The notes under the pieces were generated by a model. It saw only the letters and a list, made by a program, of their open reading frames with translations. It was not told the origin of the DNA and ran no database searches. From NCBI GenBank assembly GCA_030645575.1, contig JAUSMJ010000059.1:1-64000 (forward strand): 64,000 nt of DNA, given 5' to 3'. Below are positions 34,779-41,411 of the stretch, piece by piece (the stretch's first letter is position 1; each line of letters starts with the position of its first letter). Made by a program: the position numbers and the translations under genes. This stretch comes from Caulobacter sp. (GTDB taxonomy: Bacteria > Pseudomonadota > Alphaproteobacteria > Caulobacterales > Caulobacteraceae).

Positions 34779-36020
34779 CTACTCCCGCCGCAGCGCCTCG
34801 ATCGGGTCGAGCCTGGCCGCTCTCCACGACGGATAGGCGCCGAACACCACTCCGACCAGCAGCGAGAAGCCCAACGCCACGGGGATCGACCAGGTGGCGA
34901 TGGCCACCGGCCAGTCGCCCAGCTTGGCCATCAGGAAACCGCCGCCGATGCCGATGACCAGGCCGATGATCCCGCCGATCACCGACAGGGTCACGGCCTC
35001 CAGCGCGAACTGGAACAGCACGTCGTTGCGCCGGGCGCCGACGGCCATGCGCAGGCCAATCTCGCGGGTCCGTTCGGTCACGGCCACCAGCATGATGTTC
35101 ATGATGCCCACCCCGCCGACCACCAGCGACACGGCGGCCACGGCGGCCAGCAGCGAGGTGAAGGTCTTCACCGAGGCCTGCATGGCCTCCATGATCGAGG
35201 CCATGTTCTGGACGCTGAAGTCGTCGTCGGCGCCCTGGCGGATGCGATGGCGCTCGCGCAGCAGGTTGGTCACGTCCTCCTGCAGCCGGTCCATGTCCTC
35301 GGCGGTGGCCGCCTTCACATAGATGGTCTGGACGTTGTCGCCCTGGACCCGCCGGCCGACCACGCGCGACCGCACGGCCTGCAGGGGCCCCAGCACGATG
35401 TCGTCCTGGTCCTGGCCGAAGCCGCTCTGGCCCTTGGAGGTCAGCACCCCGACCACCTCGAATGGCACGACCCCGACCCGGATGCGCTTGCCCACCGCGT
35501 CGGTGTCCTCGCCGAACAGTGCGGTCGCCACGGTCTGGCCGATGACGACCACCTTGCGGCCCTGACGCGCCTCGGTCTCGTCGAACATCCGGCCCGAGGC
35601 GATGGTCAGGTCGCGGGCGGTCAGATAGTCGGGCGTGACCCCCTCGACCCGCGACTGCCAGTTGGCGCCCTCGGCGGTCAGCTGGGCGCCGCCGCGCACG
35701 GCCGGAGCCACGGCGACCGCCCCCTCGACCTGGCTGGCGATGGCCCCGGCGTCGTCCTCGGTCAGGGACACGCCGCTACCGGCGCCCTGGCTGACGAAGC
35801 CGCCGCCCGGGCCGCGCGAGGCGCCGGGCATGACGATCAGCAGGTTCGATCCCAGCCCGCCGATGGCGCTGGTCACCCGCTGCTGCGCGCCCAGGCCGAT
35901 GGAGGTCATCATGACCACGGCGGCGACGCCGATGACCACGCCCAGCGAGGTCAGGGCGCTGCGCATCGGGTGGGCGGCGATGGCCCCGGCCGCGAAGCCG
36001 ACCAGATCGATACGCTTCAC
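34779..36020 (-). CDS. MacB-like ABC transporter permease
   Basis: A 413-residue permease of the MacB/LolE type VII ABC family: one N-terminal membrane helix (ALTSLGVVIGVAAVVMMTS, about 23-41), a large periplasmic MacB_PCD domain (about 45-250) and three C-terminal helices in an FtsX domain (LLAAVAAVSLVVGGVGIMNI and two more). It moves molecules from the periplasm towards the exterior by mechanotransmission rather than across the inner membrane. The ATPase is a separate, 4-nt-overlapping upstream gene, so this is a split MacB. With the adaptor upstream it should form a tripartite efflux pump with an outer-membrane TolC-like protein encoded elsewhere. Confidence 0.9.
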   Translation of the reverse strand: MKRIDLVGFAAGAIAAHPMRSALTSLGVVIGVAAVVMMTSIGLGAQQRVTSAIGGLGSNLLIVMPGASRGPGGGFVSQGAGSGVSLTEDDAGAIASQVEGAVAVAPAVRGGAQLTAEGANWQSRVEGVTPDYLTARDLTIASGRMFDETEARQGRKVVVIGQTVATALFGEDTDAVGKRIRVGVVPFEVVGVLTSKGQSGFGQDQDDIVLGPLQAVRSRVVGRRVQGDNVQTIYVKAATAEDMDRLQEDVTNLLRERHRIRQGADDDFSVQNMASIMEAMQASVKTFTSLLAAVAAVSLVVGGVGIMNIMLVAVTERTREIGLRMAVGARRNDVLFQFALEAVTLSVIGGIIGLVIGIGGGFLMAKLGDWPVAIATWSIPVALGFSLLVGVVFGAYPSWRAARLDPIEALRRE

Positions 36021-36700
36021 GGGCGGTCTCCCTTGGCGTCGGAGACGATCAGCCCGTCCCGGAACGTGATCCGCCGGTCGGCCTCGGCGGCGACGTCGGC
36101 GTCGTGGGTCACGATCACCAGGGTCAGCCCCTCGGCGTTGAGCGCCTTGAACAGAGCCATCACGTCGTTGCCGGTCTGGGTGTCCAGGGCGCCGGTGGGC
36201 TCGTCGGCCAGCAGCAGGTCCGGCGCGTTGGCCAGCGCCCGGGCGATGGCCACCCGCTGCTGCTGTCCGCCGGACATCTGGGTTGGCTTGTGGCCCATGC
36301 GCGCGCCCAGCCCGACGCGCTCAAGCATGTGCCGGGCCCGCGCCCGCCGCTCGTCCGGCTCCATTCCGGCGTAGATCATCGGCAGCTCGACGTTCTGCAG
36401 CGCCGAAAGCCGTGGCAGCAGCTGGAAGGACTGGAACACGAAGCCGATCCGGCGGTTGCGGAAATCGGCCAGGGCGTTGTCGTCGAAATGGCTGACGTCC
36501 TCGCCATCGAACAGGTAGGTCCCGCGGCTGGGCCGGTCGAGACCGCCCATGATGTTCATCAACGTTGACTTGCCGGAGCCGGAGGAACCGGTGATGGCGA
36601 CGTTCTCTCCACGCGCGATGGACAGGGAGACGCCGGCCAGGGCGGCCACCGTCTCCTCGCCCATCCGATAGACCTTCTCCAGATCGCGGATCTCGATCAC
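36017..36700 (-). CDS. ABC transporter ATP-binding protein (MacB/LolD type)
   Basis: A 227-residue ATPase driving the downstream permease. Walker A is GSSGSGKST (about 38-46), the signature is MSGGQQQRVAIARAL (about 142-156), Walker B is LLLADEPTGALD (about 162-173), and the switch histidine is in VIVTHD. These match the MacB/LolD subgroup closely. It lies 3 bp after the adaptor gene and overlaps the permease by 4 nt. Confidence 0.95.
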   Translation of the reverse strand: MIEIRDLEKVYRMGEETVAALAGVSLSIARGENVAITGSSGSGKSTLMNIMGGLDRPSRGTYLFDGEDVSHFDDNALADFRNRRIGFVFQSFQLLPRLSALQNVELPMIYAGMEPDERRARARHMLERVGLGARMGHKPTQMSGGQQQRVAIARALANAPDLLLADEPTGALDTQTGNDVMALFKALNAEGLTLVIVTHDADVAAEADRRITFRDGLIVSDAKGDRP

Positions 36701-36703
36701 GGG

Positions 36704-38263
36704 CTACATCCGCACCCGGACGCCGCCGCCCATGGGACCGCCCTGGGCCGCCTTGGGTTTGGCCTTGGGGCCGCCGCCGACGATGACCTGGTCGCCGGCC
36801 TTCAACGGACCGACGATCTGGGTGAAGGAGCCGTCGGATGCGCCGACCCGCACGGGCACGGCCGTCGGCTTGCCCTCGCGCAGCACATAGACCAGGCCCG
36901 AGGTCATGCCGCCCTGGCCGCGACCGCCGCCGGCGGCCATCCGGGCGCGCAGGGCGACCAGCTTGTCCTTCTGGGCCGGTTTGAGGATCGGCTCCAGCCT
37001 GGCGAGCACGTCCTGCGTCATCTGGCGCATGGCCTGGCGACGGGCAGCGGGATCGCCGGACGCCTTGGCCAGGGCCTTGGTCCGGGCCTCGGCGAGTATG
37101 GCCTCGGCCTTCTTGCGCTGGCCGGCGTCCAGATCGAGGTCGTCGAGCAATCGGGCGCCCATCGCGCCGCCCTGGCGCTGGCCGCCGCCCTGACGGAAGC
37201 CGCCGCCCGGTGGTCCGCCGGGCCCCACGGCCGGCCCGGCGCCGCGCCGGGCCGCCTGGGGCTGCTGATCCGGCGGGTTCCAGCGCAGGGCCGCGGCCGG
37301 GACCTTCAGCACGCCGCTCAGCTGCTGGATGACGATGTCGGCGTTGGCGGTCATGCCCGGCATCAGCTTGCCGCCCGGGTTCTCGGCCTGGGCGATGACG
37401 ATGTAGGCGACGACGTTGGACTCGGTTTCGGGCTGTTTGCGCACCTGGGTGACCACGCCGGTGTAGGTGTCGTCGGGGAACGCATCGACGGTGAAGCGGA
37501 CGGTCTGGCCCTCCCGCACCTGGCCGATGTCGGCCTCGTCCACCGAGATCTTGACCTCCAGCTTGGACAGGTCGTTGGCGATCTGGAACAGCACCGGCGC
37601 CGACAGGCTGGCGGCTACCGTCTGGCCGGGTTCGATCGAGCGGTTGATGATCACCCCGTCGATCGGGGCGACGATGCGGGTGCGGGCCAGGTCCGTGCGG
37701 GTGCTGGCGAGGGCGGCCCGGCTCTGGGTCACCGAGGCCCGGGCGGCCTGGATGTTGGCCTGGGTCGACTTCCAGGCGGCCTCGGCCGTTTCCAGGGCGG
37801 CCCTGGCCACGATGCCCTGATCGTACAGGGACCTGGTGCGGTTGTAGGCGGCCCGCGCCTCCGCCGCCTGGGCCTGGGCCTGGGCGACCTGGGCCTGGTT
37901 GGCGACGATCTGCGCCTCGCCCTGCCGCACGCGGCTGACGTAGGTCTGGGGGTCGAGGATCGCCAGCAGCTGGCCGGCCCGGACCTGGTCATTGAAGTCG
38001 GCCAGCACCTTGATGATCTGGCCGGAGATCTGAGAGCCGACATCGACCTGGACCAGCGCCTGCAGCGACCCCGAGGCCGAGACCGACCTGGTGATGTCGC
38101 CCTGCTGGACCTGTTCGGTGCGATAGGGGTCCTTGGGGGCCTTGGGCTTGAACAGCTGCCACCCGGCCGAGGCGGCCGCCAACAGGCCGATCACGGCCAG
38201 GGTGTAGACGACGGGGCGCGGCAGGCCCTTCCTGCGACGGGTCGGGGCGGCGTTCAGGCTCAT
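36704..38263 (-). CDS. MacA-like periplasmic adaptor with inserted Spy-like helical module
   Basis: A 519-residue membrane-fusion protein, far longer than the roughly 370-390 residues of E. coli MacA. It has one N-terminal membrane anchor (VVYTLAVIGLLAAASAGW, about 18-35), a biotinyl-lipoyl domain, a long coiled-coil hairpin (about 110-195, Gln/Ala-rich), and a beta-barrel domain (about 235-330). Then comes an insertion at about 332-452: a Gly/Pro/Gln/Arg-rich linker followed by a helical segment (DLDAGQRKKAEAILAEAR ... LEPILKPAQKDKLVALR) that resembles the LTXXQ repeats of Spy/CpxP periplasmic proteins. The membrane-proximal domain resumes at LVYVLREGKPTAVPVRVG. It overlaps the EF-hand gene by 4 nt and precedes the ATPase. 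Confidence 0.88.
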   Translation of the reverse strand: MSLNAAPTRRRKGLPRPVVYTLAVIGLLAAASAGWQLFKPKAPKDPYRTEQVQQGDITRSVSASGSLQALVQVDVGSQISGQIIKVLADFNDQVRAGQLLAILDPQTYVSRVRQGEAQIVANQAQVAQAQAQAAEARAAYNRTRSLYDQGIVARAALETAEAAWKSTQANIQAARASVTQSRAALASTRTDLARTRIVAPIDGVIINRSIEPGQTVAASLSAPVLFQIANDLSKLEVKISVDEADIGQVREGQTVRFTVDAFPDDTYTGVVTQVRKQPETESNVVAYIVIAQAENPGGKLMPGMTANADIVIQQLSGVLKVPAAALRWNPPDQQPQAARRGAGPAVGPGGPPGGGFRQGGGQRQGGAMGARLLDDLDLDAGQRKKAEAILAEARTKALAKASGDPAARRQAMRQMTQDVLARLEPILKPAQKDKLVALRARMAAGGGRGQGGMTSGLVYVLREGKPTAVPVRVGASDGSFTQIVGPLKAGDQVIVGGGPKAKPKAAQGGPMGGGVRVRM

Positions 38264-39075
38264 GGGGTCTCGCGACTGGACTCGGCGGCCGGCGCCGCAA
38301 CCTCAATGGCGTTAACCGCCGCGGGTTGCAGCCGCATTTCAACTTCGTTGCCCGGCGCCTTCCCTCGACCCCCTTCGGCTGGACCGCGGGCCTGCGACTG
38401 GGCGGGAGTCTTCGGCAGGTCCGCCAGGGCGATCCCGCCGTCGCCATCGACGTCGAGCAGGCCGAAACGCATGCGCGCCGCCGCCGTCGCCTCGGCCCGG
38501 CTGACGCGCTGGTCGAGGTCCGCGTCCGCCCCGCGCACGGGGTGCGGCTCGTTGATCAGCGAGTATTGCGCCGCGCCCTGCCGCCGGGCGGGCATCGGCC
38601 GCCCCCGCGGATGCAGGAAGCTGGGCCGGCCGTAGACCTGTTCGCCGCGCGTGGGCGGCAGGACCAGGGGCGGCGCCCCCTCGCGCCGCACGGGGCTGGG
38701 CATGATGCCCATGATCTCCGGCGCCACGTTGCGTTCGTAATCGACGTTCTCGAAACCATCGACCACCTGGTCCTTGTCGGTGTCGAGCCGGTCGAAGAAG
38801 GCCAGGGCGTCGGCGACGAATTCCTCGCGCGTCAGGCCTCCGTCGTGATCAGCGTCGGCCCGGCCGAACCACTGCGCCGCCGGATAGGGCTGGTCCTGTT
38901 CGGCGCGAAACGGCTCGCCCGCCGGACTGATGAACACCTGCGGTGGCGGCGGTCCGGGCGGGGGCGGGGCCTCCCGCGGGCCGCCGCCCGGGATGCTGAT
39001 CGGCCGGTCCGGATCCTGGGCCAGGGCGGGGCCGGCGGCGAACAGAAGCATCAGGCAGGCGACGCGGGCGATCAT
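38260..39075 (-). CDS. Secreted EF-hand (calcium-binding) protein
   Basis: A 271-residue exported protein: signal peptide MIARVACLMLLFAAGPALA, a Pro/Gly-rich stretch (about 25-50), then four EF-hand-like loops, DADHDGGLTREE (about 74), DTDKDQVVDGFE (about 99), DADLDQRVSRAE and DVDGDGGIALAD (about 185-220). Loops one and four keep the calcium-ligand pattern best. The start was set at the ATG before the signal peptide rather than one 45 bp upstream. It overlaps the adaptor gene by 4 nt, so it probably works with the MacA-like pump in the periplasm. Function otherwise unknown. Confidence 0.85.
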   Translation of the reverse strand: MIARVACLMLLFAAGPALAQDPDRPISIPGGGPREAPPPPGPPPPQVFISPAGEPFRAEQDQPYPAAQWFGRADADHDGGLTREEFVADALAFFDRLDTDKDQVVDGFENVDYERNVAPEIMGIMPSPVRREGAPPLVLPPTRGEQVYGRPSFLHPRGRPMPARRQGAAQYSLINEPHPVRGADADLDQRVSRAEATAAARMRFGLLDVDGDGGIALADLPKTPAQSQARGPAEGGRGKAPGNEVEMRLQPAAVNAIEVAAPAAESSRETP

Positions 39076-39169
39076 GACGGGCTCCGGAGGATGAGGCGCG
39101 CCAGCTTCGCGGGCGGCCATGTCGCCAGTAGGGCCCGAGCTTTGCGGGATCGCAACACTTGAGATGTCG

Positions 39170-40600
39170 CTACAGCGGCAAGGTCACGCGGGCCGTCAGG
39201 CCGCCGCCGGGGCGGGCGCGCAGCACGACATCGCCGCCGTGGGCCCGCGCGATCGACCGAACCACGGCCAGGCCCAGGCCCGCGCCGCCCGTTTCCCGGC
39301 TGCGCGACGGCTCGCCGCGATAGAAGGGTTCGAACACCCGCTCGGCGTCCTCGGGCGGGATGCCGGGGCCGTCATCCTCGATCTCGATCACCGCCTCGCC
39401 GCCCTCGACGAACACCCGGCCGCGGGCCCGGAGCCCGTATTTCAGCGCGTTCCCGACCAGATTGGCGGTCAGTCGCCGCAGGGCCACGGGATCGCCCTCG
39501 ACCACCAGCCATTCCGACGGCAGGGCCGTGGCGTCGGCGCCGGTCTCGGCCGCCTCGTCCAGCACGCTCTCGACCAGCGAGGACAGTTCCAGCTTCTCGC
39601 GCGGCCCGGCCCGGGTGGCGTCGCGGACGAAGCCCAGGGTGGCGGAGATCATCGCGTCCATCTGGTCGATGTCGGCGGCCAGCTTGCCGCGAATGTCGTC
39701 GGGCGCGGCCTCGATGCGGAACCGCAGGCGGGTGAGGGGGGTGCGCAGGTCGTGGGCGATGGCCCCGACCATGGCCGTGCGATCCTCGACATAGCGGCGC
39801 AGCCGCTCCTGCATGCGGTTGAAGGCCTCGGCGGCGGCCTGCACCTCGCGCGATCCGCCCAGTTCCAGCGGCGGCGCGCGCGGGTCGCGGCCGAGCCGGT
39901 CGGCGCCGCTGGCGAAGGCGGCGATCGGGGCCGCCAGCCGCCGCGCGAACAGCCAGGCCAGCGGCGAGACTGCGATGACCGAGATCAGCAGGGTGAGCAG
40001 GATGTGGCCCTGCCAGGAATTGAGCCGCAGGGAGGGCTGTGGCTGCGCGACCAGCCAGCCGCCGTCGGCCTGACGCACGCCGATCCTGAACGGCGCGAAC
40101 AGGATCCGCTCGCCGAAGCGGAACGGCCCGCCGGGCCCGCCTTCGGGTCCGGGGTGTCCGGGAGGAGGTCCGGCGGGGCCATGCCCCATCAACGCCCCAC
40201 CGCGGAAGACCCGCACCTCGAACGCGCTCTCGGTCTGCCGCGAACGCATGAACATCCGTCGCGGGCCGTCGGTCTCGATGACGATCCGCGCGGGATCGAC
40301 CTGCAGGCTCTGGGCCAGGCCGCGCCGGATGTCCTCGCGCCAACGGCTGCCCCGCATGAGCAGGGGCCGCTCGCGCGGCGGCCGCGCCTGGGTCCTGACG
40401 ACCAATGGTCGGGACTCGGTCACGGGCGTGACCCCCGGTTGGCGCAGCGCCCTGGCGACGTCGGACAGGCGGTAGAGCTCCGGCGGCGGCGGCGGCAGGT
40501 GCAGGATCACGGCCGTCGAGATGCTGTGCGCCGCCACGAGGCAGACGACAACCAGGCCCAGGACCTGGACGAACAGCGGCGTCCCGCGCCACCGGTTCAT
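39170..40600 (-). CDS. Sensor histidine kinase
   Basis: A 476-residue membrane histidine kinase. It has an N-terminal helix (VLGLVVVCLVAAHSISTAVI), a periplasmic sensor of about 150 residues with a Gly/Pro-rich loop (PPGHPGPEGGPGGP), a second helix (ILLTLLISVIAVSPLAWLFA), and a HAMP linker. The H-box AIAHDLRTPLTRLR (about 288-301) is followed by ATPase boxes N (NLVGNALKYG), G1 (EIEDDGPGIP) and G2 (GGAGLGLAVVRSIA). Its start overlaps the response-regulator stop by 4 nt. It lies 94 bp upstream of the EF-hand and efflux genes, which it may control. Confidence 0.93.
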   Translation of the reverse strand: MNRWRGTPLFVQVLGLVVVCLVAAHSISTAVILHLPPPPPELYRLSDVARALRQPGVTPVTESRPLVVRTQARPPRERPLLMRGSRWREDIRRGLAQSLQVDPARIVIETDGPRRMFMRSRQTESAFEVRVFRGGALMGHGPAGPPPGHPGPEGGPGGPFRFGERILFAPFRIGVRQADGGWLVAQPQPSLRLNSWQGHILLTLLISVIAVSPLAWLFARRLAAPIAAFASGADRLGRDPRAPPLELGGSREVQAAAEAFNRMQERLRRYVEDRTAMVGAIAHDLRTPLTRLRFRIEAAPDDIRGKLAADIDQMDAMISATLGFVRDATRAGPREKLELSSLVESVLDEAAETGADATALPSEWLVVEGDPVALRRLTANLVGNALKYGLRARGRVFVEGGEAVIEIEDDGPGIPPEDAERVFEPFYRGEPSRSRETGGAGLGLAVVRSIARAHGGDVVLRARPGGGLTARVTLPL

Positions 40601-41355
40601 GACGCGCGCACGACCTTGGGCGAGAACATGTAGCCTTCGCTGCGGATGGTGCGGATGATCTCCACGCCGCTGTCGTCGTCCAGCTTGCGCCGCAACCGGC
40701 TGATCTGCACGTCGATGGCCCGGTCATAGGCCTCGGTGTCCGGCCCCCGCGCCAGATCGAGCAGCTGGTCGCGGGTCAGCACGCGCTGCGGCCGCTCGAC
40801 GAAGGCGCGCAGCAGCGAGAACTCACCGCTCGACAGGTTGACGATCACGCCCTGGGGCGAGCGCAGTTCGCGCCGCACCAGGTCCAGCCGCCAGCCGGCG
40901 AACGTGCAGGCGGCGCCGACCTGGTCGTCGTTCGGGCGCGGTTCCTGCCTGCGCCGCAGGACGGCGCGGACCCGGGCCAGCAGCTCGCGCGGATTGCAGG
41001 GCTTGGGCAGATAGTCGTCGGCGCCCAGCTCCAGGCCGACGATGCGGTCGGTTTCCTCGCCCATGGCCGACAGCATGACGATGCCCGGTCCGCCCGCCGC
41101 GCCCGACAGCCGGCGGCAGATCGACAGGCCGTCCTCGCCCGGCATCATCACGTCCAGCACGATCAGGTCGGCGGGATTGCGCTGCATCGCCAGATCCATC
41201 GACCGGGCGTCCGACGCCTGATCGACGCGATAGCCGTGTCGCGTGAGAAAGTCGGCGATCACGTCACGGATGCCCGGGTCGTCATCGACGATCAGGATCC
41301 GGGCGCCGGGCGCCTCGGCCACGCCGTGGGCGGTCTTGTCCATCACGAGCTCCAT
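40597..41355 (-). CDS. OmpR-family response regulator
   Basis: A 252-residue two-domain regulator. The receiver domain has acidic pocket ILIVDDDPGIRD, the phosphorylation aspartate in LIVLDVMMPGEDG (about D69), and the lysine in DDYLPKPCNPREL. The C-terminal winged-helix domain ends in RAIDVQISRLRRKLD and IRTIRSEGYMFSP. An internal ATG four codons in (MDKTAHG) is an alternative start. It is first of a likely unit RR-HK-EF-hand-MacA-ATPase-MacB; downstream control of the pump is inferred from order and spacing only. Confidence 0.94.
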   Translation of the reverse strand: MELVMDKTAHGVAEAPGARILIVDDDPGIRDVIADFLTRHGYRVDQASDARSMDLAMQRNPADLIVLDVMMPGEDGLSICRRLSGAAGGPGIVMLSAMGEETDRIVGLELGADDYLPKPCNPRELLARVRAVLRRRQEPRPNDDQVGAACTFAGWRLDLVRRELRSPQGVIVNLSSGEFSLLRAFVERPQRVLTRDQLLDLARGPDTEAYDRAIDVQISRLRRKLDDDSGVEIIRTIRSEGYMFSPKVVRAS

Positions 41356-41411
41356 GGCCGGCTTGTGCCGGACAGACGTGGCGCCGGAATTTCATCGCTG
41401 CAACAGACACA

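Follow-up and report, generated by a model that had tools for sequence, protein, structure and literature searches.

The closest described systems to the locus reported here are MacAB-type pumps and periplasmic proteins of the Spy/CpxP type. MacA is hexameric, with its membrane-proximal domain seated on MacB, a single polypeptide containing both ATPase and permease; Spy, CpxP and CnrX are dimers, CpxP being the periplasmic partner of CpxA, and the metal sensor CnrX belongs to PF13801 (Metal_resist). MacABCsm with MacRS of Stenotrophomonas maltophilia is said to have been described by Lin in 2014. In a stretch of 64,000 nucleotides from Caulobacter sp. (GenBank assembly GCA_030645575.1, contig JAUSMJ010000059.1, positions 1 to 64,000), here called the window, a MacA-like adaptor is encoded together with a separate MacB-type ATPase and permease, and this adaptor carries in one loop an inserted module that is, judging above all from profile searches, a distant relative of Spy and CpxP. 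Excerpts of papers on Stenotrophomonas describe ATP-binding cassette (ABC) pumps beside two-component systems, with MacABCsm giving resistance to macrolides, aminoglycosides and polymyxins (PMC8277102, PMC10295115, PMC4557615, PMC11356428); the locus of the window resembles MacABCsm/MacRS in gene context, as an ABC pump adjoining a two-component system, whereas in the same excerpts MacABCsm has its own outer-membrane channel and macRS is divergent (PMC10295115, PMC8277102, PMC4557615).

The adaptor (36704..38263, minus strand; Pfam HlyD_D23 and HlyD_3) has 519 residues compared with 371 in Escherichia coli MacA. It resembles the MacA of MacAB-TolC (PDB 5nik, 3fpp) in its HlyD-type core and return strands, with a best PDB match to MacA of 3e-46 and a Foldseek match of 4.8e-29, and its partners share with MacB the type of ATPase and the periplasmic core of the permease; unlike that system, the adaptor contains a 79-residue module with linkers, MacB is divided into two genes (36017-36700 and 34779-36020), and the scores with the MacA and MacB equivalog models lie below their cut-offs. 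In particular, the adaptor reaches 200.1 bits with the NCBIfam MacA equivalog, whose cut-off is 342, and is therefore named MacA-like and not MacA. The insertion is real and single (residues 331-453), because MacA in the PDB alignment pairs strongly with residues 19-327 and weakly with 458-507 (10.9 bits, i-Evalue 1.7), leaving the part between unmatched, and insert-less relatives, including the paralogue L042, align straight across the site. A preliminary description of the region had already given the length and one insertion, placed at residues 332-452, and both are confirmed.

The insertion begins with linker 1 (residues 331-366; 37166..37273, minus strand), which is rich in Gly, Pro, Arg and Gln, predicted to be disordered and variable in relatives; it continues with the four-helix module of predicted Spy/CpxP fold (residues 367-445; 36929..37165, minus strand), assigned by profile search, hhalign and structure prediction, and ends with linker 2 (residues 446-453; 36905..36928, minus strand), whose predicted local distance difference test (pLDDT) score is low. 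The return strands of the membrane-proximal domain follow (residues 454-500; 36764..36904, minus strand), recognised from the weak MacA alignment and from the insert-less relatives. The helices of the module are predicted at 367-375, 380-400, 405-426 and 429-445 (AlphaFold, 21 aligned adaptors) and the return strands at 454-462, 465-476, 480-484 and 492-497, while in the full-length model the pLDDT falls below 50 at 334-366 and 445-450, corresponding to the linkers. A different insertion, helical and charged, is present in the same loop of a MacA-like adaptor from Bacteroidales (L134).

The relationship of the module to Spy and CpxP emerges from an alignment of 48 inserts chosen for how well they score against the first 17, with no selection by motif; the inserts of Lysobacteraceae, cut out by a motif pattern, were excluded because the choice of a motif must not itself create the match to Spy. 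Searched against 177,635 PDB sequences, the profile of the first 17 inserts places E. coli Spy on top, weakly (E 0.025-0.058), and the 48-row profile has Spy (four entries, 7e-6 to 4.5e-5) and CpxP (6e-4, 5e-3) as its top six matches. With 24 of the 48 rows the top six are again Spy (2.5e-6 to 9.3e-6) and CpxP (0.0072, 0.017), while the same rows reversed find neither protein in the PDB (best E 0.37). The Pfam LTXXQ family (PF07813) is matched at E <= 1 by 38/48 inserts, and its cut-off of 24.3 bits is passed by eight of ten hand-chosen inserts (L085, which belongs to Caulobacteraceae, L156, L157, L160, L162, L164, L166 and L169; L037 and L159 are below it). Comparison of the inserts by hhalign with stand-alone LTXXQ proteins from relatives (14 sequences) yields E 8e-5 at 33% probability, whereas the reversed profile gives E 0.83 and two controls with the adaptor hairpin give 0.86 and 0.74; in 30 column shuffles the probability never exceeds 0.48%. 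A chance likeness of a helical stretch rich in Ala, Arg and Gln is thus rejected by the reversed rows, the reversed profile, the shuffles and the hairpin. A separate profile of 23 Lysobacteraceae inserts, biased by the motif-based cutting, joins the others by hhalign (E 7.3e-8, probability 94.6%), and 21/23 of these inserts match LTXXQ at E <= 1.

At the motif level, the module is like Spy and CpxP in its four predicted helices and, less clearly, in two LTxxQ-type positions, where L14, L16, L65 and Q69 are conserved in at least 90% of the 48 rows; unlike them it sits inside an adaptor, is shorter and, in the window, has degenerate motifs with D and K in place of T. These motifs, LDAGQ and LKPAQ, occupy the positions of LTPEQ-type motifs in many relatives, so that the LTXXQ-like patterns noticed in the preliminary description were right in kind. 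The genome of the window also encodes two stand-alone LTXXQ proteins (L001 and L002, on contigs C65 and C23).

The structure prediction is consistent with this relationship. The module alone, modelled from the 48 aligned inserts, is predicted as four helices with a pLDDT of 86.9 and a predicted template modelling score (pTM) of 0.73, and the top 20 VIA-align rows consist exclusively of Spy, CpxP, CnrX and STV, the last having a Spy/CpxP-like fold, with Z of 8.8-5.1 and 62-83 of 88 residues aligned; Z drops to 4.9 in the row after these. The segment, which the preliminary description proposed to compare with Spy, is therefore Spy-like in its predicted model, and it is this model alone that displays the four-helix fold.

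Several results weigh against assigning the module to the Spy/CpxP type and a function of that type to it. With the module alone Foldseek finds no significant match (best E 0.93), VIA-align merely re-aligns the candidates of Foldseek, and in helical bundles a Z below about 13 may reflect a common arrangement; since the first search is not significant and the second is limited to its candidates, the sequence profile is taken as the main proof and the predicted fold as its support. The module is shorter, at 79 residues, than Spy. The 48-row profile aligns with no single stretch of Spy at an i-Evalue better than 0.0043 and also misses both stand-alone LTXXQ proteins of the same genome; Spy is absent from the PDB matches of the profile made from Lysobacteraceae inserts alone. 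The module of the window reaches 13.6 bits with PF07813, below the cut-off, other scans of the window sequence give no LTXXQ match at E <= 1, and in 61 related genomes scanned with PF07813 a single insert is touched (G034, 18.7 bits, again below the cut-off). Moreover, the full-length model (pTM 0.48) does not fix the position of the module on the adaptor, the net charge is negative in 6/48 modules, and the Sphingomonad adaptors that were examined have no insert and keep the pump, so that the insert is dispensable. Being under the PF07813 cut-off, the module is described as distantly related and of Spy fold, not as a member of the Pfam family, and as the MacA and MacB equivalog cut-offs are also missed the protein is filed as a MacA-like adaptor with a Spy-fold insert.

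Other MacA homologues with the insertion, whose search had been proposed in the preliminary description, are found across Alphaproteobacteria and Lysobacteraceae; the loci come from overlapping collections in which some genomes appear twice (e.g., L026/L082 and L028/L075). Within the genus, 10 of the 36 genomes searched carry this type of adaptor, and the full order of six genes is retained in seven of these ten; L035 is without the EF-hand gene and the contigs of L027 and L031 stop too early for the order to be judged. Six further loci from the same order (L036-L041) have ATPase and permease genes behind an adaptor with the insert, and show no kinase/regulator pair on the same strand (in L038 the pair is divergent) and no match to the EF-hand protein of the window. 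In the class, 18/289 genomes, that of the window included, give matches to the insert profile, which are 16 adaptors and two stand-alone proteins. The loci of Lysobacteraceae (L095-L135; Luteimonas, Pseudoxanthomonas, Lysobacter and others) show the order regulator, kinase, MacA-like adaptor, ATPase and FtsX-type permease, like the window, with a profile-linked insert in the same loop; they differ in that nothing in them matches the EF-hand gene, the middle of the insert is longer and Gly-rich, and regulator and kinase are only ~32% and 27% identical to those of the window; most of their inserts, taken singly, are too weakly scored by the Alphaproteobacterial profile to be recognised.

In 104/108 insert-bearing loci of Alphaproteobacteria and Lysobacteraceae, repeats included, the ATPase and permease lie on the strand of the adaptor; of the other four, L092, L139 and L214 are cut short by the contig end, and for L177 the 1,479 bases downstream contain no match to either gene. 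That the module serves the pump is suggested because the insert stays with ATPase and permease while the EF-hand and two-component genes come and go. In L177:1480-3261 the adaptor reading frame apparently stops just after the insert. A tree of 105 adaptor cores, in which an insert means a tail of at least 140 residues, requires five changes of length label, four of them forced by well-supported branches; since the changes are few and some represent truncated or unrelated rows, the insert looks old and rarely gained or lost. The tree omits duplicate, truncated or odd rows (L155, L075, L076, L079, L081 from the carrier Caulobacter ginsengisoli, L082, L089, L092, L163, L105 and L107) as well as L148, whose linker was not recognised; among its short rows L131 and L142 are perhaps broken or cut at contig ends, and L134 holds the other insertion. 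Around insert-less adaptors no stand-alone LTXXQ gene is found at E <= 1e-3 (L026-L045, L075-L172), and the two stand-alone hits there are, L161 and L170, come from loci that contain no adaptor; such neighbours thus offer no evidence of a fusion.

Against eight Caulobacter relatives the module retains 51-66 of 79 identical residues with a ratio of nonsynonymous to synonymous substitution rates (dN/dS) of 0.18-0.67, similar to the return strands of the membrane-proximal domain (27-40/47, dN/dS 0.17-0.65); the adaptor core is more conserved (213-254/285, dN/dS 0.12-0.40), and linker 1 is less conserved than the module and variable in length.

The best explanation of the locus, to which a rough probability of 0.45 is given, is a MacAB-type pump with a split MacB, whose adaptor would carry a tethered client-binding arm of Spy fold. 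The anatomy alone (genes, single insertion, module) can be held with much higher confidence. Demonstrated for this reading are the genes and the fact of a single insertion, together with four properties of the module: its profile homology, the fold predicted for it, its conservation, and its occurrence with the pump genes in Alphaproteobacteria and Lysobacteraceae. The module sits between flexible linkers in a loop of the membrane-proximal domain and, MacA being a hexamer on MacB, a pump would have six of them suspended at its periplasmic mouth. Here they could act as tethered chaperones or arms that capture clients: unfolded or amphipathic polypeptides, or hydrophobic cargo of a similar kind, would be bound in the periplasm and passed on to MacB; the net charge of +8 of the window module, together with the Spy fold, is compatible with the binding of unfolded or amphipathic polypeptides. 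In Caulobacter the expression of the pump may be set by the adjacent kinase/regulator pair.

Among the alternatives, an architectural function survives best, although it appears unlikely: the module may dimerise, as Spy-type proteins do, or brace the adaptor ring, the peptidoglycan or MacB, with no handling of cargo. The insertion point in the membrane-proximal domain and the divergence of the sequence with retention of helices and motif positions fit such a spacing function; on the other hand, long disordered linkers make poor braces, and pumps of the same type exist without the module.

Somewhat less probable is a function in signalling, in which the module would act, as CpxP does, on the periplasmic domain of the neighbouring kinase, the adaptor, whether free or loaded with client, reporting demand on the pump and the operon regulating itself. 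The kinase core belongs to the EnvZ/CpxA class, and in Caulobacter, Phenylobacterium and Lysobacteraceae there are adaptors with the insert that have regulator and kinase genes upstream. Counted over 90 insert-bearing loci, however, an upstream pair on the same strand is present in 49 and absent in 34 with at least 2.5 kb of upstream sequence, seven being on contigs too short; among short adaptors 25 have no pair, three have one and two are on short contigs, a tally that includes as short L148, L224, L225 and L227, whose linker was not recognised, though some of them carry the insert. The low identity of the Lysobacteraceae pair to that of the window also speaks against this function. Searched over 398 genomes of the phylum, the 48-row profile has matches in 61, and the best 30 of the 63 matches listed are 14 adaptors and 16 stand-alone proteins (L186-L189, L191-L202), 15 of the latter having a histidine kinase as well as a response regulator in their flanks; this proportion, favourable to signalling, weighs less than it seems because 13/16 come from a single family (f183), so that few events are involved (three of four families). 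In S. maltophilia, which is likened to the window by gene context alone, inactivation of macRS left macABC expression unchanged according to an excerpt of PMC8277102.

Of five stand-alone proteins scanned, L202 (57.7 bits) and L161 (46.6 bits) pass the LTXXQ cut-off, L186 (22.2) and L188 (23.2) are slightly under it, and L187 has no LTXXQ match. In L201:1141-2133 a protein of 331 residues contains Spy-like units in tandem (two profile matches) and is encoded beside a kinase and a regulator.

A more elaborate and more doubtful version of signalling is a CpxP built into the pump in six copies, in which modules filled with cargo would release the kinase and raise expression, the EF-hand protein providing an additional, calcium-dependent input; if this were true, the exporter would itself do the sensing. 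The linkage with a kinase of the EnvZ/CpxA class opens in any case the question of whether the pump reports its own load.

A neutral decoration, that is, the growth of a loop with no function, is very improbable: the length of this loop varies among MacA-like adaptors, and in L134 it has received the other insertion, but the module is kept as a folded domain under purifying selection and across families. Least probable of all is a metal or calcium sensor of the CnrX or EF-hand kind, for which the presence of CnrX among the best fold matches (Z up to 7.5 in VIA-align), the 8/48 inserts matching Metal_resist at E <= 1 and the adjoining EF-hand gene of Caulobacter can be cited, since, unlike CnrX, the modules are nearly devoid of His (1/48) and lack Cys (0/48), inspection reveals no EF-hand loop in them, and no match to the EF-hand protein of the window is found beside the insert in Phenylobacterium, Lysobacteraceae and the other Alphaproteobacteria examined, a search by which an unrelated EF-hand protein could escape. 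Of the preliminary description, therefore, the Spy/CpxP-like insert and the linkage with EF-hand and two-component genes are retained, while the sensing of calcium through the adaptor, which it had put forward, is not borne out, as the module has no EF-hand loop and the insert occurs in lineages without EF-hand neighbours, some of which also lack two-component neighbours, a situation that the preliminary description had itself named as speaking against its interpretation.

The locus is a new combination of known parts, for which MacA, Spy/CpxP and CnrX were compared, and among the titles and abstract openings listed by searches of open-access literature no account of a Spy-type insert in an adaptor was found. 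If the module works like Spy, as in the preferred reading of a client-binding arm, there are MacAB-type pumps whose adaptor contains its own chaperone where the export path begins, which would bear on how the MacAB family captures periplasmic cargo and offers a small, removable part of 79 residues. Even leaving function aside, the insertion of a Spy-type domain into the adaptors of Alphaproteobacteria and of Lysobacteraceae is an arrangement for which the literature searches gave no description.

The adaptor belongs to a series of six genes on the minus strand, from 41355 to 34779, in the order regulator, kinase, EF-hand protein, adaptor, ATPase and permease, the last two (36700-34779) lying beyond the interval of the preliminary description. 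Overlaps of 4 nucleotides (nt) join regulator and kinase, EF-hand gene and adaptor, and ATPase and permease, and adaptor and ATPase are spaced by 3 nt; the only larger gap measures 94 nt, from the kinase stop to the likely EF-hand start at 39075. The regulator (40597..41355, minus strand, 252 residues) is of the OmpR family (Response_reg 100.2 bits, Trans_reg_C 75.4 bits), OmpR being its best NCBIfam model at 258.5 bits, below the cut-off of 331. The sensor histidine kinase (39170..40600, minus strand, 476 residues) has a periplasmic domain at about residues 35-195 and HAMP, HisKA and HATPase by Pfam, with HisKA marginally short at 26.6 bits against a cut-off of 26.9; its best NCBIfam models are EnvZ (203 bits) and then CpxA (166 bits), both under cut-off, and its nearest solved chains are CpxA (4.9e-33) and EnvZ (6e-33), in a match that spans the kinase part only. 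Both genes, which had been recognised upstream on the strand of the adaptor, are verified by reading frames and Pfam and are common to the relatives of the same genus.

The EF-hand protein (38260..39075, minus strand; the reading frame opens at 39120) has a start ATG at 39075 picked by eye from the signal peptide. That it is a secreted protein with four EF-hand-like loops holds by the loop pattern and by Pfam EF-hand_7 (31.4 bits, cut-off 30), as does the overlap of its gene by 4 nt with the adaptor, a linkage shared with relatives of the same genus. An identity as lanmodulin is rejected, with NCBIfam LanM at 37.1 bits (residues 85-123) against a cut-off of 135. In L032:6948-8595 and L033:5080-6586 two EF-hand genes lie in tandem between kinase and adaptor.

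The ATPase (36017..36700, minus strand, 227 residues, GTG start) reaches 124.8 bits with ABC_tran, and its best NCBIfam model is MacB, at 281.9 bits over the N-terminal part of the model and below the equivalog cut-off; the permease (34779..36020, minus strand, 413 residues, GTG start) reaches 168 bits with MacB_PCD and 78.7 with FtsX. The same genome contains a second MacA-like adaptor with ATPase and permease and no insert (L042:5955-9198), and two genes for outer-membrane factors on other contigs (C81, C23), fitting a pump that shares a TolC. The nearest named relatives of the adaptor are Caulobacter metagenome-assembled genomes at 83% identity, the source genome measuring 3.2 Mb. An artefact of assembly is unlikely, as the identical gene order recurs in independent assemblies, and spread by plasmids is set aside, since none of the 17 plasmid records matching the adaptor covers 80% of the query. 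Downstream of the permease, on the same strand (34713-32422), there are a TetR-type regulator and an AMP-binding gene of the acyl-CoA ligase type.

Two non-coding blocks accompany these genes. Upstream of the regulator, at about 41386-41405, an alignment of eight Caulobacter loci shows partial conservation of a block TGTTGCAG..GAAAT: TGTTGCAG is exact in five, has one change in L029 and L077 and is absent from L080, and GAAAT is present in seven. In the gap between kinase and EF-hand gene, TGTTGCG is found in 7/7 aligned loci and the palindrome TTGCG-N4-CGCAA (39142..39155), a speculative candidate operator, in four of them (window, L026, L028 and L077); it has one copy in the window against 0.07 expected, and the longer form TGTTGCG-N4-CGCAAA has a single copy in the whole genome. 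The conserved gap block and the palindrome therefore suggest, without proving it, a possible second promoter or operator ahead of the EF-hand gene, and the gap has TGTTGC in common with the block upstream of the regulator.

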